NCBI RefSeq assembly: GCF_030406385.1
Contig: NZ_JAUEPM010000002.1
Span: forward strand, 248,001-312,000
Origin: Microbacterium oryzae
GTDB taxonomy: Bacteria; Actinomycetota; Actinomycetes; Actinomycetales; Microbacteriaceae
Direction of reading: 5' to 3'
Length of the DNA: 64,000 nucleotides
The translations under genes and the position numbers were made by a program. The notes beneath the pieces are model-generated. The model worked only from the letters and a program-made list of their open reading frames with translations. It did not search any database and was not told where the DNA came from. Of the stretch, positions 8,074 through 35,787 are shown piece after piece. Every line of letters begins with the position of its first letter. Position 1 is the first letter of the stretch.

Positions 8074-8153
8074 GGTGCCTCCAAGTAGATGGTGCGGTGT
8101 CGTTTGATTCGAGTCTTCGACCGAGCCTCGGTCGGCGGAAGGCCGCGCGACCC

Positions 8154-8212
8154 GGGGTGCCGCGCACCCCCTCAGCGGTGGTGGCAAGCGGCTGAGGGGG
8201 TGCGGCGCACCC
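8154..8212. promoter_or_regulatory. Paired dyads forming a large inverted repeat in a divergent promoter region
   Basis: Two nearly identical dyads, GGGTGC-CGC-GCACCC (8155-8169) and GGGTGC-GGC-GCACCC (8198-8212), stand 43 bp apart centre to centre. Together with CTCAGC/GCTGAG they make inverted arms 8156-8176 and 8191-8211 (19 of 21 matching) around a 14-base loop. They lie between the divergent aldo/keto reductase and SnoaL-like genes, so they are not a terminator of converging genes. Twin operator sites on one face of the helix, perhaps for the XRE regulator just downstream, are the preferred reading. Confidence 0.5.
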
Positions 8213-8262
8213 TGGGAAGCGCGCCCTTCCCCGCAGTGTCGAGCCCGCGCAGTGTGGAATCC

Positions 8263-9645: not shown

Positions 9646-9771
9646 CTACCCGGCGGCGCGGTAGATGCCGCGCACCCCTCCGACAGGGCCGTGCCCGTCG
9701 TCGTTCAGCCATAGCGAGGTGTTGTCACCGGCGTGCGTCGAGGTGACCTCGGCCTGCTGCCGGTCGGAAAG
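9646..9771 (-). other. Degraded or chance reading frame behind the nitrilase stop
   Basis: In frame with the nitrilase gene, just after its TGA, a further 41 codons run to a TAG. They contain RQQAEVTST, identical to a stretch of the aldo/keto reductase at about 7227-7253, with 17 shared nucleotides. This may be a scar of a rearranged aldo/keto reductase copy or a coincidence. The rest of 9569-9771 shows no gene. Confidence 0.2.
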
Positions 9772-15916: not shown

Positions 15917-17622
15917 GTAACGCCGGCGCCGTTATCGAAGAGCCACGCCGTCGTCTCGCCCGGCAGCATCGGCGCGCGATCGCCGGGGATCGGGGCCGAC
16001 GGGTCAGAAGAGAGGCCTACGACCTCGCCGGGAGCGAGGCGGAGCGGAACCGGGACGTCGCCGAAGTTCGTCAGGGAGCGGACGCCGTCGCTGCGTCGGA
16101 CCTCGAGCACATCCTCGCCGTGCTCCACGATCGAACACATCGCCGCGCGCTCGAACCGGCGACGACGCTCAGTCAGTGCCGACCGATAGAACTCGATCGT
16201 CGACGTCGGATCGTCGGTCTGCGCCTCGACGCTCAGCGTCCCGAACCACGACGGCTGCGGGAGCGGGGTCGCCGACCCGTCACGTTCGGGCCCGAACCCG
16301 AAACGGGGGCCGGTCGACGTCCATGGGAGCGGCACCCGGCTCCCGTCTCGACCCTTCCGGCTGCCGGAGCTGCGAACCCAGATCGGATCCTGTAGCGCCG
16401 ACCGCGGGATGTCGGGCACCTCGGGCAGGCCGAGTTCCTCACCCTGATAGAGGTACGTCGACCCGGGGAGCGCGAGGATCAGCTGCGTCGCGGCGCGTGC
16501 CCGGCGCAGGCCGCGGTCGCGGTCCTCCCGCGGGTCGCCGCCATCGCTCATCAGCCACGCCACGGCATCCGCGCCGGGCGGAAGGCCGTAGCGCGTCGTG
16601 TGTCGGATGACGTCGTGATTCGAGAGCACCCACGTCGACGACGAGCCGACGGATGCCGCGAGGGTCAGGTTCTCGCGGATCGCCTCTGCGAATGCAGCCG
16701 CGCACCACGGCGACTCCAGCAGCGGGAATTCGAAGGCCTGCCCGAGCTCGGTCGGCCGGGCATACAGTGCGCGGCGGTGCGCGGGGACCCACGCCTCGGC
16801 GACTGCCGACCGGGGCGGGTCGTACTCGTCGAGCACCCGTCGCCAGCCCGCGAAGATCTCATGCACCTCGTCGCGGTCGAACAGCGGATCGGTGCCGTCG
16901 GCACGGCGGGGTGGCGGCGCGGCGTCCATCGAGCCGACTGGCCCCATCGACAGGGAGGACGAGCCAGGCAGAGGATCGGACAGGTCTTTCGCCAGCCCGT
17001 GGGCGACGTCGACGCGAAAGCCGTCGACCCCGCGGTCAGCCCAGAAGCGCAGCACATCGTGGAACATCTCGCGGACCTCGGGGTTCGACCAGTCGAAGTC
17101 CGGCTGCTCAGGCGCGAAGAGGTGCAGATACCAGGTGCCATCGCCGACGGGATGCCACGCGCTGCCGCCGAAGAGCGACGTCCACCCGTTCGGGGGCAGG
17201 GCGCCCGCCTCGCCTCGGCCCTGCCGGAAGACGTAGCGCGCGCGCTCGGGCGAGCCGGGCCCCGCGGCCAACGCGGCACGGAACCAGGCGTGCCGGTCGG
17301 AGGAGTGGTTGGGAACGATGTCCACGATGACTCGCATACCCAGCGCGTGCGCGTCGCGGAGGATGCCGTCGACGTCGTCGAGCGAGCCCAGCGCGGGATC
17401 CACCGCGCAGTAGTCGTCCACGTCGTACCCGCCGTCGGCGAGAGCGGACGGATAGAACGGGCTCAGCCAGACGGCATCGACGCCGAGCGCGGCGAGGTAC
17501 GGCAACCGGGAACGGACGCCGCCCAGGTCGCCGACGCCGTCGCCGGTGGTGTCGGCGAACGCCCGCGGGTAGACCTGGTAGACGACGGCATCACGCCACC
17601 AGTCGGCGTCCGGGGTGATCAT
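15886..17622 (-). CDS. GH13 alpha-glucosidase (oligo-1,6-glucosidase/trehalulose-hydrolase type)
   Basis: 578 residues, (beta/alpha)8 GH13 enzyme. The nucleophile is Asp205 in GFRVDVAH, the acid/base Glu276 in SAVAEAW, and the third acid Asp337 in LSNHD. The N-terminal WWRDAVVYQVYPRAFADTTG followed by DGVGDLGGVRSRLPYLAALG is typical of intracellular exo-alpha-glucosidases. It should release glucose from imported alpha-glucosides. No signal peptide is visible. Its ATG overlaps the MFS stop (ATGA), and the sugar ABC operon follows 67 bp on. Confidence 0.93.
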   Translation of the reverse strand: MITPDADWWRDAVVYQVYPRAFADTTGDGVGDLGGVRSRLPYLAALGVDAVWLSPFYPSALADGGYDVDDYCAVDPALGSLDDVDGILRDAHALGMRVIVDIVPNHSSDRHAWFRAALAAGPGSPERARYVFRQGRGEAGALPPNGWTSLFGGSAWHPVGDGTWYLHLFAPEQPDFDWSNPEVREMFHDVLRFWADRGVDGFRVDVAHGLAKDLSDPLPGSSSLSMGPVGSMDAAPPPRRADGTDPLFDRDEVHEIFAGWRRVLDEYDPPRSAVAEAWVPAHRRALYARPTELGQAFEFPLLESPWCAAAFAEAIRENLTLAASVGSSSTWVLSNHDVIRHTTRYGLPPGADAVAWLMSDGGDPREDRDRGLRRARAATQLILALPGSTYLYQGEELGLPEVPDIPRSALQDPIWVRSSGSRKGRDGSRVPLPWTSTGPRFGFGPERDGSATPLPQPSWFGTLSVEAQTDDPTSTIEFYRSALTERRRRFERAAMCSIVEHGEDVLEVRRSDGVRSLTNFGDVPVPLRLAPGEVVGLSSDPSAPIPGDRAPMLPGETTAWLFDNGAGVTHTYAADPQK

Positions 17623-19043
17623 GTCTCGTCCGTCCCTCCGACGCGCGCCCGCCACTGAGGGACCAGGCGCGCGTCGAGGGTCATCGCCAGCAGCGAGACG
17701 AGCAGCACGGCGATCACGAACCAGAATGCCCCGACAGACGCCGCGGCCACCGCTGTCGCATCCGTCGCGCTCGCCGTCGTCGAGAGCGCGAGGGTGAGTG
17801 CGACGCCGGCGACGCCGACGCCCGTGGCGGAGGCGAGTTCGCGCAGGGTGCTGTTGATGCCCGCTCCCGCGCGCCCGCCGAAGCGGCCGTAAGACGTCGT
17901 CAGCCGCGTGGACAGGGGGGAGGAGCACAAGCCGCCGCCGACCCCGACCACGACGAGCGCCGATTCATAGAGGAGGAACGACCCGTCGGCGCCCCAGGCG
18001 ATGACACCGAGATACCCGATGCTCGATGTCAGCAGGCCCGCGGCGGCGATCACACCGAGTCCCCACCGGCGCACGAGCGGGACGGTCGCGTAGGTGACGA
18101 TGAACATCGCGACCGAGATCGGCACGAGGCTCAGCCCGCTGATGCCGGCGCTGAGGCCTCGGACCGTCTGCACGATGTGCGCGTGCAGCGAGAAGAGCGT
18201 GAACAGCCCCGCGAACGTCGCCGTGATCCCGAGCGACGCTGCCCGGACCGTCGGGTCGCGGAACACCTCGAGGTGCAGGAGGGGATGGGATCTGCGTCGC
18301 TGCACCCTGACGAACCCGATCGAGGACGCTACAGCGATCGCGACGGGGACGGCGAGCAGCGCCGGCGCCGTCCGCAGCAGCGCGGGCGCCTCGATCACCG
18401 AGACCAGGGTGCCGACCGCCGCGAGCACGAAGAGTCCCGTGCCGGCGAGATCGAGCGGCGCACGACGATCGGGCCGTGCGCGCACGCCCACCGTGAGGAC
18501 GACGAGGACGGCGGCCACCGCAGCCAGGGGCGCGGTCACCGCGAACGCGCTCCGCCAGCCGCTCGCCGCGACCAGGGGGCCGCCAAGGCCGTTGCCCACG
18601 ATGCCCGCGAGGCTGGTCGAAGCCGTCCACGCCGCGACGATCGTCGCCTGGCGCATTCCGCCCCCGCGCTTCAGCAGGATCGACAGGGTCTGCGGCAGCG
18701 CGATGCCTGCGCCGATGCCCGCCACCGCGCGGGACGCGATCAGCAGCGGCATTCCGGGTGCGCACAGGGCGACGACGCTTGCCACCGCGAACAGAGCGAG
18801 GCCGGCCACGAGCACGCGCCCCTCGCCGAAGCGTTCTCCGATCATCTCGGACGGCAGGAGCAGACAGGCGAATGCGATGACGTACGCGTCGACGAACCAC
18901 GTGAGCTCTGCGGAAGTCGCGCGCATCGTGCTGTCCGCGAGCACCGGGACCGAGAGGTTCGCCAGCGAGACCGCCGACATCAGGAGGACGACGACGCCGC
19001 ACAGGATGGCAAGATCCCGGCGGCGGGTGCGAGTTTCGGTCAT
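17619..19043 (-). CDS. MFS transporter (DHA2-like)
   Basis: 474 residues, with 12-14 hydrophobic helices. The MFS motifs are clear: WFVDAYVIAFACLLLPSEMI with GERFGEGRV (motif A-like loop), and SRAVAGIGAGIALPQTLSI, followed by a drug-efflux-like TSLAGIVGNGLGGPL. Organisation of motif C and the 14-helix length fit the DHA2 drug:H+ antiporter family, so it probably exports a small molecule by proton exchange. It is the first gene before the GH13 gene (ATGA overlap), which suggests it may instead carry a sugar. The substrate is not known. Confidence 0.85.
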   Translation of the reverse strand: MTETRTRRRDLAILCGVVVLLMSAVSLANLSVPVLADSTMRATSAELTWFVDAYVIAFACLLLPSEMIGERFGEGRVLVAGLALFAVASVVALCAPGMPLLIASRAVAGIGAGIALPQTLSILLKRGGGMRQATIVAAWTASTSLAGIVGNGLGGPLVAASGWRSAFAVTAPLAAVAAVLVVLTVGVRARPDRRAPLDLAGTGLFVLAAVGTLVSVIEAPALLRTAPALLAVPVAIAVASSIGFVRVQRRRSHPLLHLEVFRDPTVRAASLGITATFAGLFTLFSLHAHIVQTVRGLSAGISGLSLVPISVAMFIVTYATVPLVRRWGLGVIAAAGLLTSSIGYLGVIAWGADGSFLLYESALVVVGVGGGLCSSPLSTRLTTSYGRFGGRAGAGINSTLRELASATGVGVAGVALTLALSTTASATDATAVAAASVGAFWFVIAVLLVSLLAMTLDARLVPQWRARVGGTDET

Positions 19044-19249
19044 GACACCAGTAAGCGGGAGGGGTGGGATGCGCCACGGCGAGTGCCGGTGCCGTATGGA
19101 CGGCGGCGTGGTGCGGCTCGAATCAGATCGGAGCCTCGCGCGTCCACCGGTCACTCTACGGCGCAGACGAGGTCGTCCCGCTCGCGGAGACGCCGAGATC
19201 GAATGCGTCGAAGCCGTCCCCAGCACGTGGCGGAACCGCCCGAACCGGC

Positions 19250-20569
19250 TCATGCCTGATAGCGCTCGAGTCGCATCGTCGCCGTCGCGGAGTGCGCCGC
19301 CATTCCCTCCGAGTCCGAGATGGTCTGGACGGCATCGGCGAGCTCGGGCGTCGTTCCGCGAGCGATCCGCTGATACGTGAGTGGCTTCACGAAGCGCGAA
19401 ACGGACAGTCCCGCGCTGTGCTTGGCGCCACCGGCGGTGGGCAGAACGTGGTTCGTGCCCGCCATGCCCTTGTCGGAATACGCCACCGTGCTCCACGAGC
19501 CGAGGAACAGCGAACCGTAGTTGCGGAGGCGATCGTGATACCAGTCGTCGTCGCGCGTCATCACCTCGAGGTGCTCGGGGGCGAGGTCGTCCATCAGCGT
19601 CGCCGCTACCTCGCGATCGGTCGCCACCGTCACGACGCCGTAGTCGCGCCAGGCCGGACCGGCGATCGACTGCGTGGCGAGCGACGCGAGCTGGCTGTCG
19701 ACCGCTTCGATGACGGCCGCCCCGTGTGCTTCGGAGGTTGTGACCAGGGCGGCGGGAGAGTTCGGGCCGTGCTCCGCCTGGCCGAGCAGGTCGGCAGCGA
19801 CGATCTCGGGGTCGGCGCTGTCATCGGAGATGACGGCGACCTCGGAAGGACCGGCGAGCAGATCGATGGCCACGGTGCCGAACAGCTGCCGCTTCGCTTC
19901 GGCGACGAACGCGTTGCCCGCGCCGACGAGCATGTCGACCGGCAGATCGCCGAGCAGGCCGTACGCCATCGCGGCGAGCGCCTGGACGCCGCCGAGGACG
20001 ATGACGCGGTCGACCCCGGAGAGGTGCGCGGCGTACACGACGGCGTCGTTAGCCGCCCCGTTTGGCTGCGGCGGCGAGCAGGCGATCACGGTGGGAACGC
20101 CCGCTTCCTTCGCGACTCCGACGGTCATGAATGCGCTTGCCGTCAGCGGGAAGCGGCCAGCGGGCAGGTAGGCGCCGACGCGGGAGACCGGGATGTAGCG
20201 TGCGCCGGTGACGAGGCCCGGCACCAGCTCGACCTCGAAGTCGGCGAGTCTCGCGCGCTGGGCTGCCGCGAACGCGCGCGTGCGCTCGGAGCCGAGCTCG
20301 ATGGCTGCGCGAAGATCGGGGGCGAGACGGTCGCCGCTCGACGCGATCTGCTCGGGAGACAGCTCGATGTCGCGCCCGTCGTAGCGGTCGAGATCGCGTG
20401 CGTGGTCGAGCACGGCGTCCATTCCGCGCCGCTGGATGTCGAGCAGCATTCGAGAAACCGTCTCGGCCACCGCGGGGTCGCGCTGGGCGGCGGGAGCGTC
20501 GACGAGCGGTTGCTTGAGGTGGACGAACGATCCGGCGAGACGGTCGAGCACGGGGGAGCTGTAGCGCAT
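19250..20569 (-). CDS. HisD-like NAD-dependent dehydrogenase (histidinol or sulfopropanediol type)
   Basis: 439 residues. Residues used for Zn and catalysis in histidinol dehydrogenase are kept: Gln264 and His267 in GQAEHG, Glu332-His333 in APEHLE, and Asp366 in YSDKGMAGTNH. The family oxidises a primary alcohol to a carboxylate in two NAD+ steps. No other his gene is nearby and the gene is divergent from a LysR regulator, an arrangement typical of HpsN (2,3-dihydroxypropanesulfonate 3-dehydrogenase) and other catabolic HisD paralogues rather than histidine synthesis. A catabolic role is therefore preferred, but is inferred from context. Confidence 0.75.
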   Translation of the reverse strand: MRYSSPVLDRLAGSFVHLKQPLVDAPAAQRDPAVAETVSRMLLDIQRRGMDAVLDHARDLDRYDGRDIELSPEQIASSGDRLAPDLRAAIELGSERTRAFAAAQRARLADFEVELVPGLVTGARYIPVSRVGAYLPAGRFPLTASAFMTVGVAKEAGVPTVIACSPPQPNGAANDAVVYAAHLSGVDRVIVLGGVQALAAMAYGLLGDLPVDMLVGAGNAFVAEAKRQLFGTVAIDLLAGPSEVAVISDDSADPEIVAADLLGQAEHGPNSPAALVTTSEAHGAAVIEAVDSQLASLATQSIAGPAWRDYGVVTVATDREVAATLMDDLAPEHLEVMTRDDDWYHDRLRNYGSLFLGSWSTVAYSDKGMAGTNHVLPTAGGAKHSAGLSVSRFVKPLTYQRIARGTTPELADAVQTISDSEGMAAHSATATMRLERYQA

Positions 20570-20593
20570 ACCTGCACGCTAGAGAACTGAAGA

Positions 20594-20633
20594 ACATCGC
20601 ACAACGGCGTGGAAGACGATGATTGACATCGCA
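20594..20633. promoter_or_regulatory. LysR-type binding region of the hisD-like promoter
   Basis: The octamer ACATCGCA occurs twice (20594-20601 and 20626-20633), 32 bp apart, about three helix turns. The second lies in CGATG-N5-CATCG (20617-20631). On the reverse strand -35-like TTGTGC and -10-like TAGCGT are 17 bp apart, just inside the first copy. This is the layout of a LysR recognition plus activation site for the divergent hisD-like gene. Confidence 0.4.
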
Positions 20634-20647
20634 TTTACCATTGGCGT

Positions 20648-21565
20648 GTGACCGTCACTCAGCTCACCGCGTTCCTCGCCGCCTTGCGTCTTGGATCGTT
20701 CACCGCCGCCGCGGTCGAACTGGACACCACGCAGGCGTCCATCTCCGAGCTCGTCGCGCGCCTCGAGCGCGAGGTCGGCGCGCGACTGTTCGTGCGCGGG
20801 CCGCGGCGACTCGCCCCGACCGAGGCGGCCCTCGCCCTCGCGGCACCCGCCGAACGCGCGGTCGCCGCCGTCGGCGAGGGGCTCGACGCCGTTCGATCGG
20901 TCACCGACCTCGACACGGGCACGTGCACGTTCGGCGTTCTCCGCAACGCCGCGTACTACGACCTCTCCGATCTCGTCCAGCGATTCCATGCGCTGCACCC
21001 CCGCGTCACCGTGCGATTGGTCGGACTGAACTCAGCCCTCGTCGCGGAATCCGTCGCCTCGGGTGAGATCGAAGCGGGACTCGTCGTGCTTCCGGTGGAC
21101 GATGCGGGGCTGGCGGTCCGTCCCCTCGCGCGTGACGAGGTGCTCTACGCATCTGCGAACCGTGATCCGGGTCTCGGCGCGGTCACCCTCGATGAGATCA
21201 GCAACGCCAAGCTCGTGCTGTATGACGCTTACGCCGGATGGCGTGACCCGACGAGGCGTCAGCTGCGCGACCGCGCCGCGCTCGCCGGCCTCGCCGTCGA
21301 ACCCGCGATCGAGGTCGAGCATGTCGAGACGGCGCTGAGCCTGGTCGCGACAGGATCGGTCGACACCATCGTCTCGCGGCGGGTCGCGGAAGGTGCCGGT
21401 TTCCCCTCCGGCATCCATGTCACCGCGTTCGACGACCCGCTGTACGACACGATCGCACTCGTGCAGCGACGGGGCGCGCACCTCTCGACCGCGACCCGCC
21501 GCATCGTCGAGCTCGCCGTCGAATCGCTCGCGTCGGCGGAGCTTCCGCGCGTCGCGGCGGGATGA
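20648..21565 (+). CDS. LysR-family regulator
   Basis: 305 residues from a GTG. The HTH is at the N-terminus (TQLTAFLAALRLGSFTAAAV, then ISELVARLEREVGARLF), followed by the LysR substrate-binding region (TFGVLRNAAYYDLSDLVQRF ... ALVAESVASGEIEAGLVVLP). It is divergent from the HisD-like dehydrogenase and should activate it in response to a co-inducer, probably the dehydrogenase substrate. Only 78 bp separate the starts, holding the direct repeat described above. Confidence 0.9.
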   Translation: MTVTQLTAFLAALRLGSFTAAAVELDTTQASISELVARLEREVGARLFVRGPRRLAPTEAALALAAPAERAVAAVGEGLDAVRSVTDLDTGTCTFGVLRNAAYYDLSDLVQRFHALHPRVTVRLVGLNSALVAESVASGEIEAGLVVLPVDDAGLAVRPLARDEVLYASANRDPGLGAVTLDEISNAKLVLYDAYAGWRDPTRRQLRDRAALAGLAVEPAIEVEHVETALSLVATGSVDTIVSRRVAEGAGFPSGIHVTAFDDPLYDTIALVQRRGAHLSTATRRIVELAVESLASAELPRVAAG

Positions 21566-21772
21566 TGGCGAGGGCGAGGCTGCGGGTCGAGCTGTGTCGC
21601 GCGGAGCGCATCGAACCTCGATGAAGAGGTAGTCGGGTGCGAGCCGCTGACGGCCACCGCGTAGGGCGCGAGCAGAGCCTCACCATCGACGTGAAGGGCC
21701 TGATCCGTGGCCACTCGACCCCGGAGGCCTCTCCTACGTCAACACCGACCGGCACGCCAACAGCCCGCGTAA
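21566..21772. other. Spacer with no recognisable gene at the island edge
   Basis: Between the LysR stop and the tRNA fragment no convincing coding sequence is seen. Short frames are open but have no start signal and run into the tRNA fragment and terminator. The stretch could hold worn remnants of integration functions, but nothing recognisable remains. Confidence 0.4.
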
Positions 21773-21798
21773 GGGTTCAAATCCCACCGTCACCGCCA
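21773..21798 (+). other. 3' fragment of tRNA-Ser (probable attachment site)
   Basis: Twenty-six bases match the end of a tRNA with exact spacing: half of the T-stem, T-loop TTCAAAT, five-base T-stem strand CCCAC, seven-base acceptor strand CGTCACC, discriminator G73 and encoded CCA. G73 with this acceptor strand fits tRNA-Ser. The bases just upstream (AA where GT of the T-stem is expected) break the pairing, so the tRNA body is absent. This is how the distal attachment site of a tRNA-integrated element looks. The intact tRNA-Ser would lie left of the window. Confidence 0.65.
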
Positions 21799-21804
21799 GA
21801 TGAG

Positions 21805-21848
21805 AAGGCCCCCGATCCCATGGAGACATGGGGATCGGGGGCCTTTCT
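21805..21848 (+). terminator. Strong rho-independent terminator after the tRNA-Ser fragment
   Basis: An 18-bp stem with one bulged G (21805-21822 with 21827-21845) around a GAGA tetraloop, ending in CCTTTCT. It begins six bases after the tRNA CCA end, as expected for the original terminator of a tRNA-Ser gene. On the reverse strand it ends in CCTT and can also stop the leftward transcript from RidA. Confidence 0.85.
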
Positions 21849-21889
21849 CGTACGCTGATCGACGCCGACGGTGACGCACCTGCCGTGCT

Positions 21890-22306
21890 TCAGGGCGAAC
21901 CGGCGTCGCCCCGACTCTCCTCGAGGACGGCGACGAGGTCGCACTGCACGAGCGCTCGGCGGTCGAGCTGGGCGGACATCGCCTGCCGGGCGGGGCGGCT
22001 CGCCGGATCGGGGAACATCTCGAGCCATTCGCGATTGAGCGCCATGCGGTCGCGGTAGTCGGCCAGCCAGAACGTCATCTTGACGATGTCGTCCACGTGC
22101 CCGCCCGCGGCCGCCATGAGGTGGCGCACGTGGAGGAACACGTTGCCGCACTGGGCGTCCAGTGACGCAGGCATCGTGGAGGTATGCGGGTCGCGCCCGG
22201 TGAGGACGCCCGAGAACAGGAAGGGCCCGATCCGCGACGCCGTCGGTATCGGGTTCTCGTGCGAGAAGCCCGGCATCAGGACGCTCGACCGCCGCGGCAC
22301 GGTCAT
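21890..22306 (-). CDS. RidA/YjgF/UK114-family protein
   Basis: 138 residues with RidA features (FSHENPIPTASRIGPFLFSG, DAQCGNVFLHVRHLMAAAGG, KMTFWLADYRDR). The C-terminus lacks the fully canonical R-Y/C-E end of archetypal RidA. The superfamily deaminates enamine/imine intermediates, and one branch (AmnD) is 2-aminomuconate deaminase in aminophenol meta-cleavage. It is the last gene of the leftward operon (ATGA overlap with the FAH-family gene), so it probably acts on a pathway intermediate. Confidence 0.85.
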   Translation of the reverse strand: MTVPRRSSVLMPGFSHENPIPTASRIGPFLFSGVLTGRDPHTSTMPASLDAQCGNVFLHVRHLMAAAGGHVDDIVKMTFWLADYRDRMALNREWLEMFPDPASRPARQAMSAQLDRRALVQCDLVAVLEESRGDAGSP

Positions 22307-23157
22307 CCCTCCTCGACGACGCGGTTCTCGATCGCGCCGAGGCCCTCGATCTCCGCGTGCACGACGTCGCCCGGCTTCAGCCAGTTCTGGGTGGGAGCGC
22401 CGATCCCCGCAGGCGTCCCCGTTGCGAGGATGTCCCCCGGCATGAGCGTCATGACCTGCGACAGGTAGGCGATCTGCTCGTAGATGTCGTAGATCATGTC
22501 GTGCGTGCCGAAATCCTGCCGCACCTCTCCGTTCACGCTCAGGCGCATGCGCAGGTCGAGCGGATCTGCGATCTCGTCGTCCGTCGTCAGCCATGGTCCC
22601 ATCGGACCGTGGGTGTCGAAGGACTTCCCGAGCGTGAACGTCGGAGAGCGCTTCTGCAGCCAGTCGCGAACGGACACATCGTTGACGACGAGATACCCCG
22701 CGATGACCGAGCGCGCCTCATGCGCCTCGACGTGGCGGCAGCGCTGCCCGATCACGACCCCCAGCTCGATCTCGTAGTCCAGCTGCTCGCTCACCCGCGG
22801 GCGCTCGATCGGGTCGAAGGGCCCGCCGATGCAGGAGACCTGCTTGTTGAACCACAGCTGGCTGGTGGGGATGGGGATGCCGGCCTGGCGTGCCTCCTCC
22901 GCGTGCTCGCGATAGTTCATCCCGATCCCGAGGAACTTCTGCGGGTCGTCGACAGGCGCTTCCAGGACGACGTCGGTGAGCGGGATCCGATCGCCCTCGG
23001 CGGCCAGAATGCCCTCACGCAGCTCGGCGAGCCGGGGTAGAGCGGCCCGCAGCGATGTGCCGACCCCGGGAAGGTCGCTGATGTCGACGAGCGCGTCGCC
23101 GTCGACGCGCGCCAGCCGCGAGGCTCCGTCGGCGCGGCGGTATCGAGCGATTCTCAT
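22303..23157 (-). CDS. Fumarylacetoacetate hydrolase family protein (HpaG-like or acylpyruvase)
   Basis: 284 residues with the FAH beta-roll: metal-binding acids in QLDYEIELGVVIG (around 127-131) and Asp in VVNDVSVRDW, plus FLGIGMNYREHAEEA and TGTPAGIG. Family members hydrolyse C-C bonds of acylpyruvates or, as HpaG, decarboxylate and isomerise the homoprotocatechuate ring-fission product. In this cluster it is a good candidate for the step between the ring-cleavage product and the HpaH-like hydratase. Start and stop both overlap neighbours (ATGA). Confidence 0.87.
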   Translation of the reverse strand: MRIARYRRADGASRLARVDGDALVDISDLPGVGTSLRAALPRLAELREGILAAEGDRIPLTDVVLEAPVDDPQKFLGIGMNYREHAEEARQAGIPIPTSQLWFNKQVSCIGGPFDPIERPRVSEQLDYEIELGVVIGQRCRHVEAHEARSVIAGYLVVNDVSVRDWLQKRSPTFTLGKSFDTHGPMGPWLTTDDEIADPLDLRMRLSVNGEVRQDFGTHDMIYDIYEQIAYLSQVMTLMPGDILATGTPAGIGAPTQNWLKPGDVVHAEIEGLGAIENRVVEEG

Positions 23158-23636
23158 GTCTTCTCCTGTTCCGCTCCGGCATCGCCGGAGCCCTCGTCCT
23201 CGGCGCGCTCGGAGGGCAGCTCGCCCCACACCTGCTCGCCGTACGGTGTCATCTGAAAGCTCACGAAACGCCATGCGCCGGTGGCGTCGCGTCGCAGCAC
23301 CTGTGTCACCGCGCCCCCGAGCGTGCGCTCGCCGCCGTCGGGATTGCGCAGCCGGTTGATCAGGGGGCCGTCAATGATGGCGACATCGCCCAGCACGCGC
23401 ACCCGCAGCTCTCCCCGGGAGATGCCGAGATAGGCCTGCCGTGTCGCGACGTGCTCGAGCAGCTGGCTCTTCGTGTGCGTGACGCCCGGCGCGTGGATGT
23501 GGACGAGGCTCTCATCGAACATGGCGTCGAGCGCCTCGACATCGGCGGCCATCAGCGCGCGCTGGCGCCGCTCCTCGAGCGCGAGCACCTCGGCCACGGC
23601 CGTGTCGTGATCGGCCGCGGGTTTCGTCGTCTTCAT
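23154..23636 (-). CDS. NTF2/DUF4440-like protein
   Basis: 160 residues, an NTF2-like cone of the DUF4440 or SnoaL type: EVLALEERRQRALMAADVEA, MFDESLVHIHAPGVTHTKSQ, then LLEHVATRQAY and GDVAIIDGPLI. The C-terminal 20 residues are Glu/Ala-rich. It could isomerise or bind a pathway intermediate, but no catalytic residue can be assigned. The gene overlaps the FAH-family gene before it and the SDR gene after it by four bases each, so the three proteins are made in coupled amounts. Confidence 0.75.
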   Translation of the reverse strand: MKTTKPAADHDTAVAEVLALEERRQRALMAADVEALDAMFDESLVHIHAPGVTHTKSQLLEHVATRQAYLGISRGELRVRVLGDVAIIDGPLINRLRNPDGGERTLGGAVTQVLRRDATGAWRFVSFQMTPYGEQVWGELPSERAEDEGSGDAGAEQEKT

Positions 23637-24415
23637 AGCAGTCCCTCATACGTTCCGCCGTCCAGCTGGATGCTCTGGCCGGTCATGTACCCCGCCTGCG
23701 CACTGCAGAGGAACGCGCAGGCGTCGCCGAATTCCTCCGGCCTTCCGAGCCGCCCGGCGGCGATGGTCGAGGCGATGCGGCGGTACGCCTCGTCACGGTC
23801 GATGTCCTCGGCGCTCATCAGCCGTCGGGCCATGAACTCCTGGCGCGGCGTGTCGAAGCGCTCTGGCAGCAGGCTGTTGACGGTCACGTTGTCCTGGACC
23901 ACCTCGCGGCTGAGCGCCTTGCTGATCGCCGTCAGCGCGCTGCGCGCAGAGGTGGACAGGCCCATCTCGTAGGAGGGGCTCTTCACCATCGCGGAGGTGA
24001 TGTTGACGATCCGTCCGAAGCGCCGAGCGCGCATCCCCGGCACATACGCGCGCATGAGCTCCACCGCGGGAATCATGTTCGCGCGCGCGGCCTCGATCAG
24101 CGCGTCCTCCGTCCATCCCTCCAGACCCACCGGCCGCGGACCGGCGTTGTTGTTCACGAGGATGTCGACGTGAGGACGCGAGCGGACGATCGCGTCCCGG
24201 CCCGCTGCGGTGGTGAGATCGGCTGCGACCGCCGACACGTCCGCGCCCTCCACCTCCTCGCGAAGCCGAGCAGAGGCCGCGTCCAGCCGGTCGGCGTCGC
24301 GCCCGTTGAGCACGACAGCGACGCCCTCACGCGCCAGGGCCAGCGCGCACGCATAGCCGAGGCCCTGCGATGACGCGGCGACGAAGGCGGTGCGTCCCGC
24401 GATTCCGAGGTCCAT
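23633..24415 (-). CDS. SDR-fold protein lacking the Tyr/Lys catalytic pair
   Basis: 260 residues. The Rossmann fold is intact (ASSQGLGYACALALA for the cofactor loop, NNNAGPRPVG, and a C-terminal TGQSIQLDGGTY). Where classical SDRs have YxxxK it reads GLSTSARSALTA, so Ser replaces Tyr and Arg replaces Lys. The upstream Ser is kept (ITSAMVKSP). A group of bacterial SDRs with GLSNGAR at this site is known, so this is a natural variant, but the chemistry is probably not ordinary alcohol dehydrogenation. It stands 17 bp from the FAD hydroxylase gene. Confidence 0.82.
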   Translation of the reverse strand: MDLGIAGRTAFVAASSQGLGYACALALAREGVAVVLNGRDADRLDAASARLREEVEGADVSAVAADLTTAAGRDAIVRSRPHVDILVNNNAGPRPVGLEGWTEDALIEAARANMIPAVELMRAYVPGMRARRFGRIVNITSAMVKSPSYEMGLSTSARSALTAISKALSREVVQDNVTVNSLLPERFDTPRQEFMARRLMSAEDIDRDEAYRRIASTIAAGRLGRPEEFGDACAFLCSAQAGYMTGQSIQLDGGTYEGLL

Positions 24416-24432
24416 GCCGGATCGGCCCTGGT

Positions 24433-25716
24433 TCAGGCCCGACCGGCTGCGGCCGGCTCGTCCCAGGTGCGGAAGCCGGTCGCCTCGCCGGCCTCATGCC
24501 CCGGACGCGGGGATCCGACGAGCCGGTGGTAGCGACTGAAGATGGCGTCGGCCTCGGTGAGCGGGAGCACGTCCTCGATGTCCTCGAACGGCTGCCCGTC
24601 GGTGCGCTCGGCCACCATCCGCCGGATCACCTCGTACCCTTCGCCGCGCATGTTGTCGGCGATGCGGTTCACGATGTCACGGCGCGCGGCGTCGTACGCG
24701 GCGAAGGCCTTCCGGGGATCGCCGAGTTCGATGAGCTTCTCCGTCAGCACCCGCGCGTCGAGCATGGCCTGCGTGATGCCGTTGCCGCCGCGGGGGTACA
24801 TGGCATGCGCCGCGTCGCCCAGCAGAACGACCCGCCCGTCCACCCAGGTGTCCAGGGGGAAGTGCCGGATGAGCGGGAACAGGTACACCTCTCGCGCGTC
24901 GCGGATGAGCTGCTGCACGTCGAGGAACGGCAGCTTCAGGGTGTCGAAGGCGGGAATGATCTGCTCGGGGTCGGCGACCTGGTTCCAGTCCTCGGCGGTC
25001 TCCTCGCCGTTCGTCTCGACGACCCAGTTGACCAGGTCCAGGCCCGAGCCCTCGAAGTTCTGCGCGATCGGGTACACGATCATCGTCGAGATGCGCGGGT
25101 CTCCGAGGTGGAGGATCGTGTGCCCGCCGCGGAACGGCTCGCGCAGCGTGGTGCCGCGCCACATCGTGATGCCGGAGAACTCCGGCTCCGCCTGGTTGGG
25201 GTGCATCTGCCGGCGCACCGCCGACTTGATCCCGTCGGCGGCGATCACGGCGTCGTGGCGCTTCTGCTCGGTGCGGCCGTCACGGTGGGCGATGTCGAGG
25301 GTGACGCCGTCCGCGTCCTGGGCGTAGTGCTCCACGCGTGCGCCGAGGATGACCGCGTCCTCGCCCAGGCGCTCGAGCACGGTCCGGTAGAAGAGCATCT
25401 GCAGGATGCCGCGATGCACGAACCGCTGCTCGTGCAGGTAGCCCATGTGCACCCCGCACTTCTCGGCGTAGATCTCCTGGCCGAAGTGGTTGTAGAAGAT
25501 CGAGTCCTCTGCGTCCACAGAGATCGCGCGGAACTTCTCGAGGAGGCCGAGATCGTCGATCTCCCGCGTTCCGACGGTCTTGATGTCCACGCCGACGCCC
25601 AGCGGCTTCAGCTCCGGCACTGTCTCGTAGATCGTGGGCCGGAAACCCGCCTGGTGCAGGCGGAGCGCGGTGATCAGGCCGCCGGGGCCCGCGCCGATGA
25701 TGGCGATATCGGTCAT
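24433..25716 (-). CDS. FAD-dependent aromatic hydroxylase (group A, salicylate hydroxylase-like)
   Basis: 427 residues of the PHBH/salicylate-hydroxylase family: ADP-binding GAGPGG at 8-13, the DG motif (AADGIKSAVRR), and the GD motif in LLGDAAHAMYPRGGNG. Such flavoproteins hydroxylate a phenolic or N-heterocyclic acid with O2 and NAD(P)H, often with decarboxylation. It presumably supplies the vicinal diol for the extradiol dioxygenase encoded on the other side of the promoter. The ATG at 25716 (TDIAIIGAG) is preferred over an upstream extension with an unstructured lead. Confidence 0.9.
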   Translation of the reverse strand: MTDIAIIGAGPGGLITALRLHQAGFRPTIYETVPELKPLGVGVDIKTVGTREIDDLGLLEKFRAISVDAEDSIFYNHFGQEIYAEKCGVHMGYLHEQRFVHRGILQMLFYRTVLERLGEDAVILGARVEHYAQDADGVTLDIAHRDGRTEQKRHDAVIAADGIKSAVRRQMHPNQAEPEFSGITMWRGTTLREPFRGGHTILHLGDPRISTMIVYPIAQNFEGSGLDLVNWVVETNGEETAEDWNQVADPEQIIPAFDTLKLPFLDVQQLIRDAREVYLFPLIRHFPLDTWVDGRVVLLGDAAHAMYPRGGNGITQAMLDARVLTEKLIELGDPRKAFAAYDAARRDIVNRIADNMRGEGYEVIRRMVAERTDGQPFEDIEDVLPLTEADAIFSRYHRLVGSPRPGHEAGEATGFRTWDEPAAAGRA

Positions 25717-25786
25717 GGTTGTTCTCGCTTTCTGGGGCGGGACGGTCTCGGTCTCGCTCGGGGGGATGGCGGATGGCCGGTGGGCG

Positions 25787-26506
25787 TCAGTGGTCAAGGG
25801 GGTCTTCCTGCAGAAATCGCTCGATGCGCTGCCACGTGCGGGCGGCGCTGCGGGGGTGCGGACCGAAGCCGGCCCGGCGCGAGGGAGGTGACGGCGGATC
25901 GGTGTAGCCGTGGCCGGCGCCGCCGAACAGGTCCACCTCCCAGTCCAGTCCGGCCTGCGAGAGCGCGCCCTCTATGCGGGCTCGCTCAGCGGCCGGCGCC
26001 ATCGGGTCGTCTGCGCCCGTGCACAGCAGCACACGCGCGCTCGCGGTCGCGCTCGACCAGTCGTCGCCGACGAGGTCCAGTCCGCCAGCGATGCTCACAG
26101 CGCCTGACACCTCGGCGCCGGTGCGCACCAGTTCGAGGGCGGAGGCGCCGCCGAAGCTCGTGCCGATGACGACGGGTCGTCGCCCTGCCGCCTCCGGTCG
26201 CTCCCGGAGGGCGTCGAGGGCGGCGGTGAGACGTCCGTGCCACTCCACGCGATCGGCCGCCATCCCGCCGACGAGCGGACCGGGGTCTTCGCCGGGAGCG
26301 GGCACCCGGCCCCAGACGTCGGCGGCGAGAACCGCGAAGCCGAGGTCCGCGAGCCGATGCGCGTCGCCGAGCACCGAGCGCGTGAGGCCGTACGCGCCGT
26401 GCACGAGCAGGACGGACGGCGACGGCCGCTCCGAGACGGGCGCGACGAGCATGCCGTGCATGGCCGTGTCGCCGTGCGCGTAGGGCACGGCCTGCTCGAG
26501 GCTCAT
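25787..26506 (-). CDS. Dienelactone hydrolase-like alpha/beta hydrolase
   Basis: 239 residues of the dienelactone hydrolase family: VLLVHGAYGLTRSVLGDAHR, a nucleophile elbow GTSFGG, Asp in CTGADDPM and His in GGAGHGYTDP. True dienelactone hydrolases use Cys in GxCxG, but here it is Ser, so it is better called a carboxyl- or thioester hydrolase. In this cluster it may cut an ester of the aromatic substrate or a lactone intermediate. The product remains in the cytoplasm, as no signal is seen. It lies between the LysR and hydroxylase genes. Confidence 0.85.
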   Translation of the reverse strand: MSLEQAVPYAHGDTAMHGMLVAPVSERPSPSVLLVHGAYGLTRSVLGDAHRLADLGFAVLAADVWGRVPAPGEDPGPLVGGMAADRVEWHGRLTAALDALRERPEAAGRRPVVIGTSFGGASALELVRTGAEVSGAVSIAGGLDLVGDDWSSATASARVLLCTGADDPMAPAAERARIEGALSQAGLDWEVDLFGGAGHGYTDPPSPPSRRAGFGPHPRSAARTWQRIERFLQEDPLDH

Positions 26507-26531
26507 CGCGCGGCCTCGGCGACGTCGGTGG

Positions 26532-27431
26532 TCAGGCGTCGTGGCGCGAGCGGTACCAGCCCGAGATGAAGTCGAGGAACAACCGCACCCGCGCGGGTGT
26601 CTGACCCCCCGGTCCGTGCACGGCGTACAGGGAGCGCGTCGGCGGCGGCAACTGCGGCAGCACTTCGACGATCCGTCCGGCGTCGAGCGCCGGCTGCGCG
26701 GGCCCGCGCGGGATGATGCCGATGCCGCAGCCCTGCTCCACCATCTGCTCGAGCAGCAGGTACGCGTTCGTCATGACGGCCGGTTCCTGCACCTTGTACT
26801 GCTGGGCATCCGGTCCGTCCCCCAGATGCCAGACCGCGTCGTTCGCGTGCGTCAGCAGCTCGTGTCCTGCGAGGTCGGAGGGTCGCTGCGGGGTCCCGCG
26901 CCGGGACAGGTACTCCGCCGATCCCGCCAGCACGAAGGGCAGCTCCGTGACCCGTCGCACCCGCACCCGGGAGTCCCGTGGATCCCGCGCATGGAAGGCG
27001 ACGTCGAAGCCCCGGTCGAGGAAGTCGTACAGGCGATCCGACATCGATCCGAGCTCGACGCGCACGCGGATCCGCGGATGCTCGCGCACGAAGGCGCCGA
27101 TGGCCGTGCCCAGGTCGAGGTTGCCGATCCACTTCGGACAGAGGATGGACAGCTGGCCCTCGGCCGAGCTCTGCCGCTCGGCCAGTTCCGCGTCCGTCTC
27201 CTCGATCTCCTGCAGGATGCGGTCGGCGAACTCCGCGTACTGCTGCCCCGCATCCGTCAGGCTCACGGAACGGGCGGTCCGGTTGACCAGCCGCACGCCG
27301 ACCTGCGCCTCCAGGTCCGCCACATGCCGCGACACGAGCGAAGGCGAGATGCCGAGAGCTCCGGCAGCGCCGTTGAACGTCGACACCCGGGCGACCGCGA
27401 CGAACGTCCGCATGACGACGAGACGATCCAC
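26532..27431 (-). CDS. LysR-family regulator of the aromatic cluster
   Basis: 299 residues. HTH in VMRTFVAVARVSTFNGAAGA and SPSLVSRHVADLEAQVGVRL, then a LysR_substrate domain (GQLSILCPKWIGNLDLGTAI ... LLEQMVEQGCGIGIIPRG), of the CrgA/DsdC-like subgroup. It is embedded in the leftward operon, not divergent from it, so it likely acts at the shared promoter region 32747-32917. The co-inducer is probably an aromatic acid or ring-fission product. Confidence 0.9.
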   Translation of the reverse strand: MDRLVVMRTFVAVARVSTFNGAAGALGISPSLVSRHVADLEAQVGVRLVNRTARSVSLTDAGQQYAEFADRILQEIEETDAELAERQSSAEGQLSILCPKWIGNLDLGTAIGAFVREHPRIRVRVELGSMSDRLYDFLDRGFDVAFHARDPRDSRVRVRRVTELPFVLAGSAEYLSRRGTPQRPSDLAGHELLTHANDAVWHLGDGPDAQQYKVQEPAVMTNAYLLLEQMVEQGCGIGIIPRGPAQPALDAGRIVEVLPQLPPPTRSLYAVHGPGGQTPARVRLFLDFISGWYRSRHDA

Positions 27432-27494
27432 GCCGGTTCTCCTTCGCTCCGTTGCCGCGGCCTTCCGATCCGAGCTTATCCGTCGTCCGCGCGC

Positions 27495-28358
27495 TCATCG
27501 CGCCGCCGCCTTCCGCTCGGCAGCGCGCAGGGCGCGGCGCTCCTCGCGTCCGGCCGGCGTCGCCGCGGGGGTCGCCTCCAGGAGCGTTCGCGTGTACGGG
27601 TCACGGGGCGAGGTGAACAGCGTCTCGGTGTCGGCGAGCTCGACGAGGCGCCCCTGGTTCATCACACCGACACGGTGGGCGATGCGTCGCACCAGTCCCA
27701 TGTCGTGCGCGATGAACAGGTAGCTCACGCCGGTGAGCTCCTGCAGATCCATGAGGAGGTTGATGATCTGGCTCTGCGTCGACAGGTCCAGCGCGCTCAC
27801 CGCCTCGTCGCAGACGACCAGGCGCGGCTCGAGCACAAGCGCCCGCGCGATTGCGACGCGCTGCTGCTGGCCGCCGGAGAGCTCGTTGGGGAAGCGTCCG
27901 AGGTGATCGGACGAGAGCCCGACGAGGTCGAACGCATGCCGCGTGCGGCGGTCGAGCTCGCGGCGGTCGCGTACGCCGTGGCGCCGCAACGGCGCCTCCA
28001 CCGCGTGCGAGACGAGGTGCCGCGGATTGAGCGAGGCGCTCGGATCCTGGAACACCGCCTGCACCTGACGCCGGTAGGCGAGCGGGGTGCGGCGACCCCA
28101 GCGGGCGATGTCCTCGCCGTCGAACAGGATGCTCCCCGACAGCGCCGGCAGCAGCCGCAGGATCGCGCGTCCCGTGGTGCTCTTGCCCGAGCCGGACTCG
28201 CCGACGAAGCCGAGAGTCTCCCCGGGCCGGATGTCGAAGCTCACGTCCTCGACGACGGGGGCCGCCGGGCGCGTGCGCAGGAGGCCGGCGCGGGTGTCGT
28301 ACGCGGCGGCGAGATCCTTCACCTCGAGAAGCGGGCGCTCGTCGATCTGGCTGCTCAT
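27495..28358 (-). CDS. Oligopeptide/dipeptide-type ABC ATPase (OppF-like)
   Basis: 287 residues. Walker [11 protein letters not shown]-loop FQDPSASLNPR, signature LSGGQQQRVAIARAL, and Walker B LVVCDEAVSALD (Ala in place of the usual Pro after DE). The C-terminus has the oligopeptide-transporter tail (DPYTRTLLEATP). It powers the OppB/OppCD complex encoded upstream. ATGA overlap with the fused permease-ATPase gene. Family importers carry peptides, but also glycosides and nickel, so a plant-glycoside substrate is compatible. Confidence 0.93.
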   Translation of the reverse strand: MSSQIDERPLLEVKDLAAAYDTRAGLLRTRPAAPVVEDVSFDIRPGETLGFVGESGSGKSTTGRAILRLLPALSGSILFDGEDIARWGRRTPLAYRRQVQAVFQDPSASLNPRHLVSHAVEAPLRRHGVRDRRELDRRTRHAFDLVGLSSDHLGRFPNELSGGQQQRVAIARALVLEPRLVVCDEAVSALDLSTQSQIINLLMDLQELTGVSYLFIAHDMGLVRRIAHRVGVMNQGRLVELADTETLFTSPRDPYTRTLLEATPAATPAGREERRALRAAERKAAAR

Positions 28359-30229
28359 CGCACGGCCTCCATCCGGTCCGCGGCCGCGACCGCGTCGTCG
28401 ATCTGGGCGCGGGTCGCGGCGTCGATGGTGCGCAGGCGCCCCGCACCGTCCGCGCTCGCCGGGTTCGCCGCCAGCAGCGCCGCGGTATAGGGGTGCTGCG
28501 GGGCCGCGAACAGGCGCTCCGCGGAGGCGTCCTCGACGATGCGTCCGCGGTACATGACGGCGGCTCGATCACAGGTCTCGGCGACGACGCCGAGGCTGTG
28601 GGTGATCATGAGCACGCCCATCCCGTACTCGTCGCGGAGGTCCAGCAGCAGGTCGAGCACCTGCGACTGTGTCGTGACGTCGAGCGCGCTCGTCGCCTCG
28701 TCGGCGATGAGCAGCTCGGGCTCGGCCGCGAGCGCCATCGCGATGGCCACGCGCTGGGCCATTCCGCCCGAGAACTGGTGCGGGTAGTGGTCGAGCCGCT
28801 CCGCCGCGCGCCGGACGCCGACGCGCTCGAGCAGCTCGACGGCGCGCGCCCGCGCCTGGGCGCGGGGGAGGCCCTTGTGGATCCGGAGCGGCTCGACGAG
28901 CTGCTGGCCGACGGTGTGCACGGGCGAGAGCGCGGTCATGGGGTCCTGGAACACAGCTCCCATGACCGTGCCGCGCACGCCGACGAGCTCCCGCGCCGGA
29001 AGCCGGGTGAGGTCGCGTCCGGCGACGCGGATGGAGCCGCCGTCGAGCCAGGTGCCGGCGGGGAGCATCCCCAGCACCGCGCGTGCGAACGTGGACTTGC
29101 CCGAGCCCGATTCGCCCAGGAGGCCGACGATCTCGCCGCGCCCCACCTCGAGGCTCACCCGGCGGACGATGTCGACGGGAGGACCCGAGGGGCGGGCCAG
29201 CGCGACCGTGACGTCGTGCGCCCGCAGCACCGGCTCTGCCCCCGACCCCCGCTCCTCGCGTGCGTCTGCCGACGCGACCGGCGCGACCGGGGCGGCGACA
29301 GGCGCGGCCGCCGGCGTCGCGGCGCGCCGCGGCCGGCGGCGGCGCTCGCCTGTCAGGGCATCGTTGAGACCGTCGCCGAAGACGTTGAACGCCAGCACGG
29401 TGAGCATGATCGCGAGACCGGGCGGCCAGGACAGGAAGGGCGCGACCGCCTGCTTCTCCACGGCGAGGCTCAGCATCGCGCCCCATGTCGGCACGTCGCC
29501 GCCGAGGCCGATGCCGAGGAAGCTCATCGCGGACTCGAGCATGATCGCAGACCCCAGGAACACGGCGGCCTGGGTGATCACCGGGCCGATCAGGTTCGGC
29601 AGGACCTGGCCGAAGATGATCTGCCCGGTGCGCAGCCCCGAGACCTCGGCGGCCTCGACGTACAGCTTGCCGCGTTCGACGAGCACCGTCGCGCGGGTCA
29701 TCCGGGCGAACGCCATGCAGAAGACGAGGCCGATCGCGAACATGAGGATGAACATGTTGCGACCCAGGATGGCGATGACCGTCAGGCCGATGAGCATCCC
29801 GGGAAGAGCCTGGGCCATGTCGACGAACCGCATGCCGATGCGGTCCCACCATCCGCCGTGGAAGCCGAAGAGCAGGCCGATCGGCACGCCGAGCACCGCG
29901 GCGATGACGACGGATCCGAGCGCCACGAGGAGCACGATGCGCGTGCCGTGGATGAGACGGCTCAGCTGATCGCGCCCGAGATCGTCGGTGCCGAGGACGT
30001 GCGCGGCGGACGGGGCCTCGAGCACGTGGTCGAAGTCCGTCAGCGTGGGGTCGTACGGCGCGATGAGCGGCGCCGCGAGGGCGACGACGACGAGCAGCAC
30101 GATGAACGCGAACGAGACGACGGTGGCCGGCTGCCGGCGGGCGCGGAAGACGATGCGCCCGATGTTCGTGCCGCGCTTGGATTCGGACGCGGCGATGGAG
30201 TGGACGGTGCTCGTGACGGTGTCGCTCAT
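28355..30229 (-). CDS. Fused ABC permease-ATPase (OppC-OppD)
   Basis: 624 residues in two parts. Residues about 1-300 are an OppC-like permease (six helices, [20 protein letters not shown] and [20 protein letters not shown]). A linker rich in Ala, Pro and Val (about 300-340) leads to an ATPase (about 345-624) with [24 protein letters not shown] and [12 protein letters not shown]. The fusion guarantees one permease per ATPase. The partners are OppB (next gene upstream) and OppF (next gene downstream), with ATGA overlaps on both sides. No frameshift is needed, since the frame is continuous. Confidence 0.92.
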
Positions 30230-31170
30230 CGCGGCCTCGCCTTCGGGTTGATGAGTCCATAGAGGACGTCGAGGACGAGGTTGACGACGATGATCATGAC
30301 GGCGATGAGGAGCACGCCCGCCTGCACGACGGCGAAGTCCTTGCCGGTGACGCTGCGGAGCATGAGCGTGCCGATGCCGGGGAAAGCGAACACCTTCTCC
30401 AGGGCGAAGCTGGCGCCGAGCATGATGCTGATGGTGATGCCCGTCGCGGACAGCACGGGGACGAGGGCGTTCTTGAACGCATACCGGAACACCACGCGGC
30501 CGCGCGGAACGCCCGCCGCGGTGAGGGAGTCGACGTAGCGCGAGGAGAGCGCCTCGGCCATCGCCGTGCGCGTCTGCCGCGCGATCAGCGCAGCGCCGGC
30601 GATGCCCAGCGCGATCGAGGGCAGGATGAGCCCCCGCAGCCATCCGACGGGGTCCGTCTCGAAGGGCACGTAGGCGACGACGGGCACCAGCCCCAGCTGC
30701 ACCGCGAAGACGAGCAGCAGCACGATGCCGACCCAGAACTCGGGCACCGACATCGTCAGGGCCGAGATGGCGGTCGCCACCCGGTCGCGGATCGAGCCCG
30801 GTTTGGTTCCGCCGAGGAGGCCGAGACCGAGACCGAGCAGCAGCGCCACCACGAGCCCGCCGAGCATGAGCGAGAACGTGGCGGGCAGGCGCTCGGCGAA
30901 GAGCTCGCCCACGGGCCGCGCCGACACGTACGACATCCCGAGGTCCCCCTGGAACGCATGCGCGTACCAGTCGCCGAGGCGGGTGAAGAACGGCCGGTCG
31001 AGCCCCAGCTGTGCTTCGAGCTGCGCGACGCCGGCCGGGGTGGCGGCGGCGCCCAGGATGGCCGCCGCCGGGCTCCCCGGAACGAGGTACGTGAGCAGGA
31101 AGACGAAGAACGACAGCAGGAGCAGCTGGGGCACCGCCAGGGCGAGCCGGGAGAGGACGAGCTTCAGCAT
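30226..31170 (-). CDS. Oligopeptide-type ABC permease (OppB-like)
   Basis: 314 residues, six transmembrane helices. N-terminal LVLSRLALAVPQLLLLSFFV and the periplasmic DRPFFTRLGDWYAHAFQGDL are typical of OppB/DppB. The cytoplasmic coupling loop is around SLTAAGVPRGRVVFRYAFKN. It forms the channel with the OppC half of the fusion. GGGGGTGG precedes the ATG. The binding lipoprotein is encoded 49 bp upstream. Confidence 0.93.
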   Translation of the reverse strand: MLKLVLSRLALAVPQLLLLSFFVFLLTYLVPGSPAAAILGAAATPAGVAQLEAQLGLDRPFFTRLGDWYAHAFQGDLGMSYVSARPVGELFAERLPATFSLMLGGLVVALLLGLGLGLLGGTKPGSIRDRVATAISALTMSVPEFWVGIVLLLVFAVQLGLVPVVAYVPFETDPVGWLRGLILPSIALGIAGAALIARQTRTAMAEALSSRYVDSLTAAGVPRGRVVFRYAFKNALVPVLSATGITISIMLGASFALEKVFAFPGIGTLMLRSVTGKDFAVVQAGVLLIAVMIIVVNLVLDVLYGLINPKARPR

Positions 31171-31219
31171 GTCGTCCACCCCCTTCGCGGCGCGCCCTGA
31201 CGGATGGTGATGCAGGACA

Positions 31220-32746: not shown

Positions 32747-32917
32747 GCGCGCCTCCTTGCGACATGGCGCGGCTCCTCGGAGGAGCCGTCGAGATTCGGG
32801 TCGCGTTCACGCTAGAACGCCCGGTGCCCCTTCCACGACGTCCGATCGTGCAACCTCACCGTGCAGGATCGTGCGGATGCGTCAGGGCAGGGCGCGCCTA
32901 TCGTGAGGGACGTGACG
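32747..32917. promoter_or_regulatory. Divergent promoter region of the aromatic/glycoside cluster
   Basis: These 171 bp feed both gene sets. A hairpin with 8-bp arms and a CGG loop (32770-32788) lies in the leader of the binding-protein gene. GATCGTGC is repeated directly at 32844-32851 and 32867-32874, 23 bp apart, each near a further TGCA element, a pattern typical of activator sites. The LysR gene inside the leftward operon is the likely regulator. Confidence 0.4.
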
Positions 32918-35758: not shown

Positions 35759-35787
35759 CCAGAAACCGCTGAGAGGAAGGACCGCAC

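Follow-up and report, generated by a model that had tools for sequence, protein, structure and literature searches.

The window analysed here is a stretch of 64 kb (C16:248001-312000) on a 430-kb contig, C16, of a 3.09-Mb genome (G000, hereafter the own genome). At window positions 21773-21798 it holds GGGTTCAAATCCCACCGTCACCGCCA, a 26-nt tRNA-Ser 3' end that consists of three 5' T-stem bases, the T-loop, the five-base 3' T-stem strand, the seven-base acceptor strand, G73 and CCA. An earlier note on this DNA had claimed that these 26 bases have the geometry of a tRNA end from T-loop to CCA, that the tRNA body is missing and that a strong terminator follows directly. The orphan end was confirmed on all three counts: the match is letter by letter, ARAGORN found no tRNA gene over the 64-kb window, and positions 21773-21860 (the orphan end, hereafter the scar, plus the hairpin behind it) have a folding energy of -49.3 kcal/mol, where shuffled versions average -30.6 kcal/mol (z -5.7). 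With up to three mismatches allowed, the 26-mer occurs once in the window and in 0/100 dinucleotide-preserving shuffles. An Rfam search near the scar at a permissive threshold gave only matches below the gathering score, which were taken as chance. The features of the window are as follows.

1-21772, no strand: in-window part of island A, the whole of which is C16:240789-269772 (29.0 kb, from tRNA-Ser(CGA) to the scar)
21773-21798, + strand: orphan 3' end of tRNA-Ser(CGA), 26 nt, identical to C16:240763-240788 and found in 0/100 shuffles
21799-21850, + strand: terminator-like hairpin directly 3' of the orphan, from folding
21799-41465, no strand: island B, 19.7 kb, missing from the tRNA-to-flank interval of G032, the closest relative found
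41466-41490, + strand: 3' half of the inferred native tRNA terminator and start of the DNA common with the closest relative, from a shuffle test
41491-64000, no strand: native flank, in large part collinear with G032 (91-96% identical)

The intact partner of the scar is a tRNA-Ser(CGA) encoded on the same strand at C16:240698-240788, with an identical 26-nt 3' end. Lying 29,010 bp upstream, it falls 7.2 kb beyond the left edge of the window; the acceptor strand of the scar pairs with the 5' start of this tRNA. A complete tRNA-Ser with the same 3' end had been predicted to the left of position 1, and it was found there, 29.0 kb away and matching at 26/26 nt; of the adjacent tyrosine recombinase that was to be looked for with it, neither a gene nor a remnant was detected. 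Two more serine tRNAs, at C16:103-105 kb, lack the complete 26-nt match (the better one reaches 84% over 42-44 nt), and the 260 kb of C16:170000-430569 hold no further core copy with 1-7 mismatches besides the tRNA and the scar. The scar is the right attachment site of the DNA enclosed by the two copies, termed island A.

Genes were called with a simple custom gene finder, giving 29 in island A and 18 in island B, and 40 of the 47 predicted proteins were scanned against Pfam (E ≤ 1e-5). From left to right, island A encodes a HAD hydrolase, a phosphonate ABC transporter, an RpiR regulator and a flavoprotein oxidoreductase (these mostly left of the window), followed by TetR, SDR, LtrA, an aldo/keto reductase and an MmyB-type regulator, and finally by a carbon-nitrogen hydrolase, LacI, a sugar ABC transporter, an alpha-amylase-family enzyme, MFS, histidinol dehydrogenase and LysR. 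No mobility domain was found in the 28 of its 29 predicted proteins that were scanned (one permease-like protein lay outside the scan), four of the 28 having no Pfam match. The G+C content of island A is 67.9%, including a stretch of 65.7% at window 1-9.6 kb, against 71.2% and 71.1% in the flanks; the lower G+C of the left 9.6 kb reported in the earlier note was thus reproduced, and it marks only part of the island. Two repeats were seen inside island A, a 26-nt direct repeat (window 7223-7248 and 9737-9762, 92% identical, 2.5 kb apart) and an intergenic 40-nt inverted repeat (window 8137-8230, 85% complementary, with a 14-nt loop).

Relatives of the phosphonate-transport block at the left end of island A occur elsewhere in related genomes, at 69-74% in the longest matches; this search scored one best place per genome and left out 95 genomes, so the tally is a floor. 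In one of them, G060, a 73% relative of the block (G060:C11:34038-38769) lies 19-24 kb beyond the orphan of that genome, outside the marked element and oriented with respect to the tRNA as it is in the own genome, so the phosphonate block may sometimes sit near the tRNA without being in a marked island.

The extent of the inserted DNA was read from a comparison with the closest relatives found, which on a 3.8-kb anchor at C16:332 kb were G032 (94%), G038 (87%) and G130 (85%). This ranking rests on one locus and one place per genome and scored 214 of 366 genomes, so a closer relative than G032 may exist among the 152 left out. G032 itself carries two core copies, 40.6 kb apart. In an alignment with C16:200-345 kb, the left-hand match to the own genome (89-94%) begins at C16:219 kb and stops shortly ahead of the tRNA, at C16:240,626; G032 has about 1 kb more there. 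Across the interval from the tRNA to window 41,466 there is no match of at least 200 bp to G032, bar one 265-bp stretch at 74% left of the G032 tRNA. The match resumes at C16:289,466 (window 41,466), 14 nt past the end of the G032 orphan core, and runs at 91-96% with small gaps on to C16:335.8 kb. The terminator behind the G032 orphan is identical over 33 nt to the one directly behind the intact tRNA of G038, a genome with a single copy, and is therefore taken as native. Since G032 matches left of the tRNA and again from 41,466, 48.7 kb would have been inserted, comprising island A (29.0 kb) and a second block, island B (19.7 kb). In this one relative both blocks are absent and both flanks are shared, and anywhere in its genome A and B find only 66-74% matches (68-72% for A). 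Island A also had no blastn match of at least 200 bp in the stretches around the tRNA of G032, G038 and G130.

The reading of the scar in the earlier note, as the trace of an insertion at tRNA-Ser, is supported by these data: the proposed comparison with relatives turned up, in the closest one found, a genome without the DNA between tRNA and scar, and positions 1-21.77 kb are inserted DNA absent from G032. The part that did not stand is the far edge, as the scar is the boundary between A and B and not the edge of native DNA. The reading we prefer, with a probability of about 0.87, is that islands stand in a tandem array at tRNA-Ser(CGA), in the order tRNA, island A, scar, island B, native terminator, and that the orphan is the footprint of an attachment site within it, the scar then serving as the left attachment site of island B too. 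The hairpin behind the scar differs from the inferred native terminator (the one behind the G032 orphan and the G038 tRNA) and probably came with island B instead of being the native terminator of the tRNA.

At the right edge of island B, the score of the terminator at 41,466-41,490 was reached by 14/500 shuffles and that of core plus terminator together by 29/500, while an attachment core there was undetectable (score reached by 323/500 shuffles); a site-specific entry of B is thus suggested by its left end and its position. To the right, the native flank departs from collinearity with G032 in two unmatched gaps of 0.8-0.9 kb in the own genome and in 3.5 kb extra in G032. In a further genome, G113 (L132, C1:1288517-1308516), the homologue of the cluster at C16:300.8-306.7 kb starts at most 0.1 kb from tRNA-Ser, which suggests a different rearrangement of the same locus.

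Island B encodes a RidA-like protein, two FAA-hydrolase-family proteins, DUF4440, an SDR, a FAD-binding monooxygenase-like protein and a dienelactone hydrolase, along with a peptide-type ABC transporter, an alpha-L-rhamnosidase, an amidohydrolase, DUF3500 and a glyoxalase-family protein, and is possibly a plant-compound degradation cluster. All 12 of its 18 predicted proteins that were scanned had a Pfam match, and none had a mobility domain. Its G+C content (71.1%) is close to that of the flanks (71.2% and 71.1%), so island B is missed by composition alone. In a contig search with the FAA-hydrolase right of the scar, none of the best 80 of 244 relatives was titled Microbacterium, records near the own genome possibly having been excluded.

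The scar was further examined as a junction across 366 genomes of the genus, with one or two best places scored in each, so that the counts are floors. Matches to window 17,600-24,450 at E ≤ 1e-60 were obtained in 54 of the 366 (own included), and the own genome alone has one that crosses the scar; elsewhere, matches in the left block reach window 21,554 at most and those in the right block begin no earlier than 21,918. Close relatives collinear across the scar had been named as the finding that would speak against an insertion, and none appeared in this set at that threshold other than the own genome itself. One genome, G080, was considered as a carrier of the same island by the spacing of its two copies (29,009 vs 29,010 bp) and was rejected: the right flanks of the two orphans share no match and G080 has no match to window 17600-24450 at E ≤ 1e-60, so the spacing was taken as coincidence.

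A variant of the tandem array, which it does not contradict, is that A and B arrived together as a composite island with the scar already inside. Both blocks are present here and both are absent in G032, as a joint arrival would leave them, and composite transfer is described as possible in the available part of PMC5704250; no other genome of the 366 joins the blocks (E ≤ 1e-60, one or two places each), however, and related blocks are found separately, so that we regard this route as unlikely. Arrival of A first, of B first or of both jointly each yields the present structure, and the eroded right end of B hints that B is the older.

A good deal less probable is that island A was the sole insertion and that all DNA right of the scar is native. 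Such a single element would agree with the scar being the only further copy with fewer than eight mismatches in the 260 kb scanned and with the 26-nt pair bounding A exactly; it conflicts with the comparison to G032, which shares DNA only from window 41,466 on and in whose genome window 24,450-41,460 finds only 66-74% matches. The remaining piece, window 21,850-24,450, is also rare: with at most two places scored per genome, it had matches of more than 1.5 kb in five other genomes among the matches listed for the 366, at 72-74%, and in the two with a known tRNA position (G011 and G091) these lie far from the tRNA. Synteny with 14 single-copy genomes and six 80-kb stretches did not yield the native right flank, the region being highly variable. 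In another pair of genomes, the right flank of the G017 orphan resembles what follows the intact tRNA of G095, a single-copy genome (88% over 1,018 nt). The DNA right of the own scar was compared with the stretches downstream in 32 single-copy and 22 two-copy genomes and matched none of them; as G032 is itself occupied, no strictly empty site was seen.

The same arrangement recurs in the genus. An exact 25-nt pattern of the core was sought in 119 genomes (own included) drawn evenly from the genus, and was present in 110/119, with at least two copies in 24/119. In 20 genomes (19 others and the own) two copies lie 2-100 kb apart on the same contig, and in 20/20 of these pairs they are on the same strand with the orphan downstream of the tRNA; in the other four multi-copy genomes the copies are on different contigs (G048, G055, G087) or on opposite strands far apart (G099). 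The intact tRNA was confirmed by ARAGORN in 22/23 other genomes, that of G023 being cut by the contig end with its variable arm readable. In the other genomes 22 orphans were examined, the second copy of G055 and two of the four in G023 being left out. The tRNA-Ser(CGA) site is thus an insertion hotspot in the genus. It was undescribed in the literature searched on tRNA-Ser, Microbacterium, islands and integrase, most subscription papers having been outside reach.

Many copies, tRNA or orphan, have a hairpin directly behind them, and similar hairpins recur among elements and hosts, as if the tRNA end and terminator travelled as one module. Over 60 nt, 23 orphans gave a mean of -29.8 kcal/mol vs -19.4 kcal/mol for 375 control stretches; the weakest orphan is equalled or surpassed by 92% of the controls, and with ranges overlapping this widely a terminator behind every copy is not established. 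G047 (L131) has, about 1.45 kb past its tRNA, 45 nt that are 95% identical to an orphan-linked terminator without holding an exact core copy; on this resemblance they are probably a decayed attachment site.

Integrases were compared in 21 of the 23 other genomes (G055 and G099 excluded). In 8/21 a PF00589 match is oriented towards the tRNA from a position 0.1-2.0 kb downstream; in 2/21 the integrase beside the tRNA is broken, and in 3/21 the interval contains a family member that is not next to the tRNA. The remaining 8/21 had no PF00589 match between the copies, and tblastn over the fetched stretches found no family member. The hotspot integrases form one family, the longer members being 48-79% identical (BLASTP), and their best relatives in a phage collection are integrases, at 48% in Gordonia phage Gsput1. 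Among single-copy genomes, no such integrase was found in the 14 fetched with 17 kb downstream (six with 77 kb); the difference, counting integrases intact or broken beside the tRNA, is 10/21 vs 0/14 (Fisher p = 0.002, a statistic that ignores kinship).

For the own genome, the statement in the earlier note that no integrase is visible agrees with PF00589, PF00239 and tblastn searches alike. The genome has six PF00589 matches, none of them on C16; four of these tyrosine recombinases match the hotspot family at 24-28% and two have no match at E 1e-6. When 12 family members were searched by tblastn against C16:170000-430569, no hit was better than E 0.096 and no integrase remnant emerged, and PF00239 over the whole genome found no serine recombinase near the islands. 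A partial serine-recombinase match with one stop codon lies at G000:C16:14413-14598, far from the islands.

These genus-wide data leave little room for an origin of the scar without integration, by deletion of a tRNA-Ser gene or from a duplicated tRNA end. A lone 3' end could come from deletion of a duplicated tRNA gene, yet such an origin is very improbable given the orientation and order common to 20/20 same-contig pairs, identity that, in the orphans listed, extends no more than about three bases beyond the 5' end of the 25-nt pattern, the related integrase beside many of the tRNAs and the lack, at all 22 orphans examined in other genomes, of another full-length tRNA-Ser(CGA). A resemblance by chance, or that of a tRNA-like sequence tied to a terminator, is excluded by the 26/26 identity and the 0/100 shuffles even with three mismatches.

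For the tandem array, the following course of events may be proposed. A tyrosine integrase of the hotspot family, known beside the tRNA in relatives, would have inserted the elements by recombining the chromosomal tRNA 3' end with the copy that each element carries together with a terminator of its own. Each insertion would rebuild the tRNA and push the old 3' end away, B would have entered by the same route as A, and the integrase would have been lost afterwards. Island A would then be an integrase-less, site-bounded island with matching ends, and B one that lost its right core. As no integrase lies between tRNA and scar, the status that can be claimed is that of a decayed island.

Stacking of acquired blocks at one site is a known mode of bacterial genome growth. 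The cargo of A and B consists of transporters, regulators, oxidoreductases, glycosidases and hydrolases, and none of the 40 of 47 proteins scanned (Pfam, E ≤ 1e-5) has a phage structural or packaging, relaxase, conjugation, transposase or integrase domain, so that neither a prophage nor an integrative conjugative element can be recognized by such content. The closest known counterparts are CIMEs, which the available part of PMC5704250 describes as decayed islands that keep both sites, with tandem accretion at the end of the target gene. Like them, island A keeps attL and attR (26-nt copies identical), has no integrase or mobility genes in 28/29 proteins and shares one tRNA 3' end with a second island placed in tandem. 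It has the structure by which CIMEs are defined, with a mobility that is putative; island B, with its right core undetectable, does not show the pair of sites. The array here differs from the CIMEs covered in that text in having no integrase-bearing partner, in its cargo of actinobacterial metabolic genes and in being known from sequence alone.

Similar tandem arrangements are described in the part of PMC3146451 available for Dehalococcoides, where islands follow one another downstream of one RNA gene, ssrA, each ended by a copy of its 3' end; 15 are without an integration module, and insertion is in the T-loop region. Tandem islands behind one RNA gene, 3'-end copies and the lack of an integration module in some are common to both systems, whereas the target and enzyme there, as far as that text goes, are tmRNA and a serine recombinase, and here tRNA-Ser(CGA) and, in relatives, a tyrosine integrase. 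The signature used by Islander, as given in the accessible portion of PMC4383910, is an intact tRNA and a displaced 3' fragment in fixed order and orientation, 2-200 kb apart. The tRNA and its downstream same-strand fragment show this signature at 26/26 nt and 29,010 bp; Islander, however, is described there as requiring an integrase gene inside the candidate, and island A, which has none, would be rejected by that filter.

A broader interpretation, which we put forward as doubtful, is that metabolic cassettes without an integrase of their own use tRNA-Ser(CGA) as a common docking port, a single widespread integrase family moving them in trans. Islands such as A, with their matching tRNA ends and their own terminator, would then be mobile units instead of dead relics. 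Cassettes mobilised in this way would explain the 8/21 occupied genomes that have paired sites and no tyrosine integrase between them.

Of the 64-kb window, 41.5 kb was probably acquired, with sharp boundaries, and composition flags only part of it; searches that require an integrase would miss such islands. A hotspot at tRNA-Ser(CGA) and its integrase family are now described for the genus, and, should integrase-less islands be mobilised in trans, metabolic genes would have a general exchange route here.
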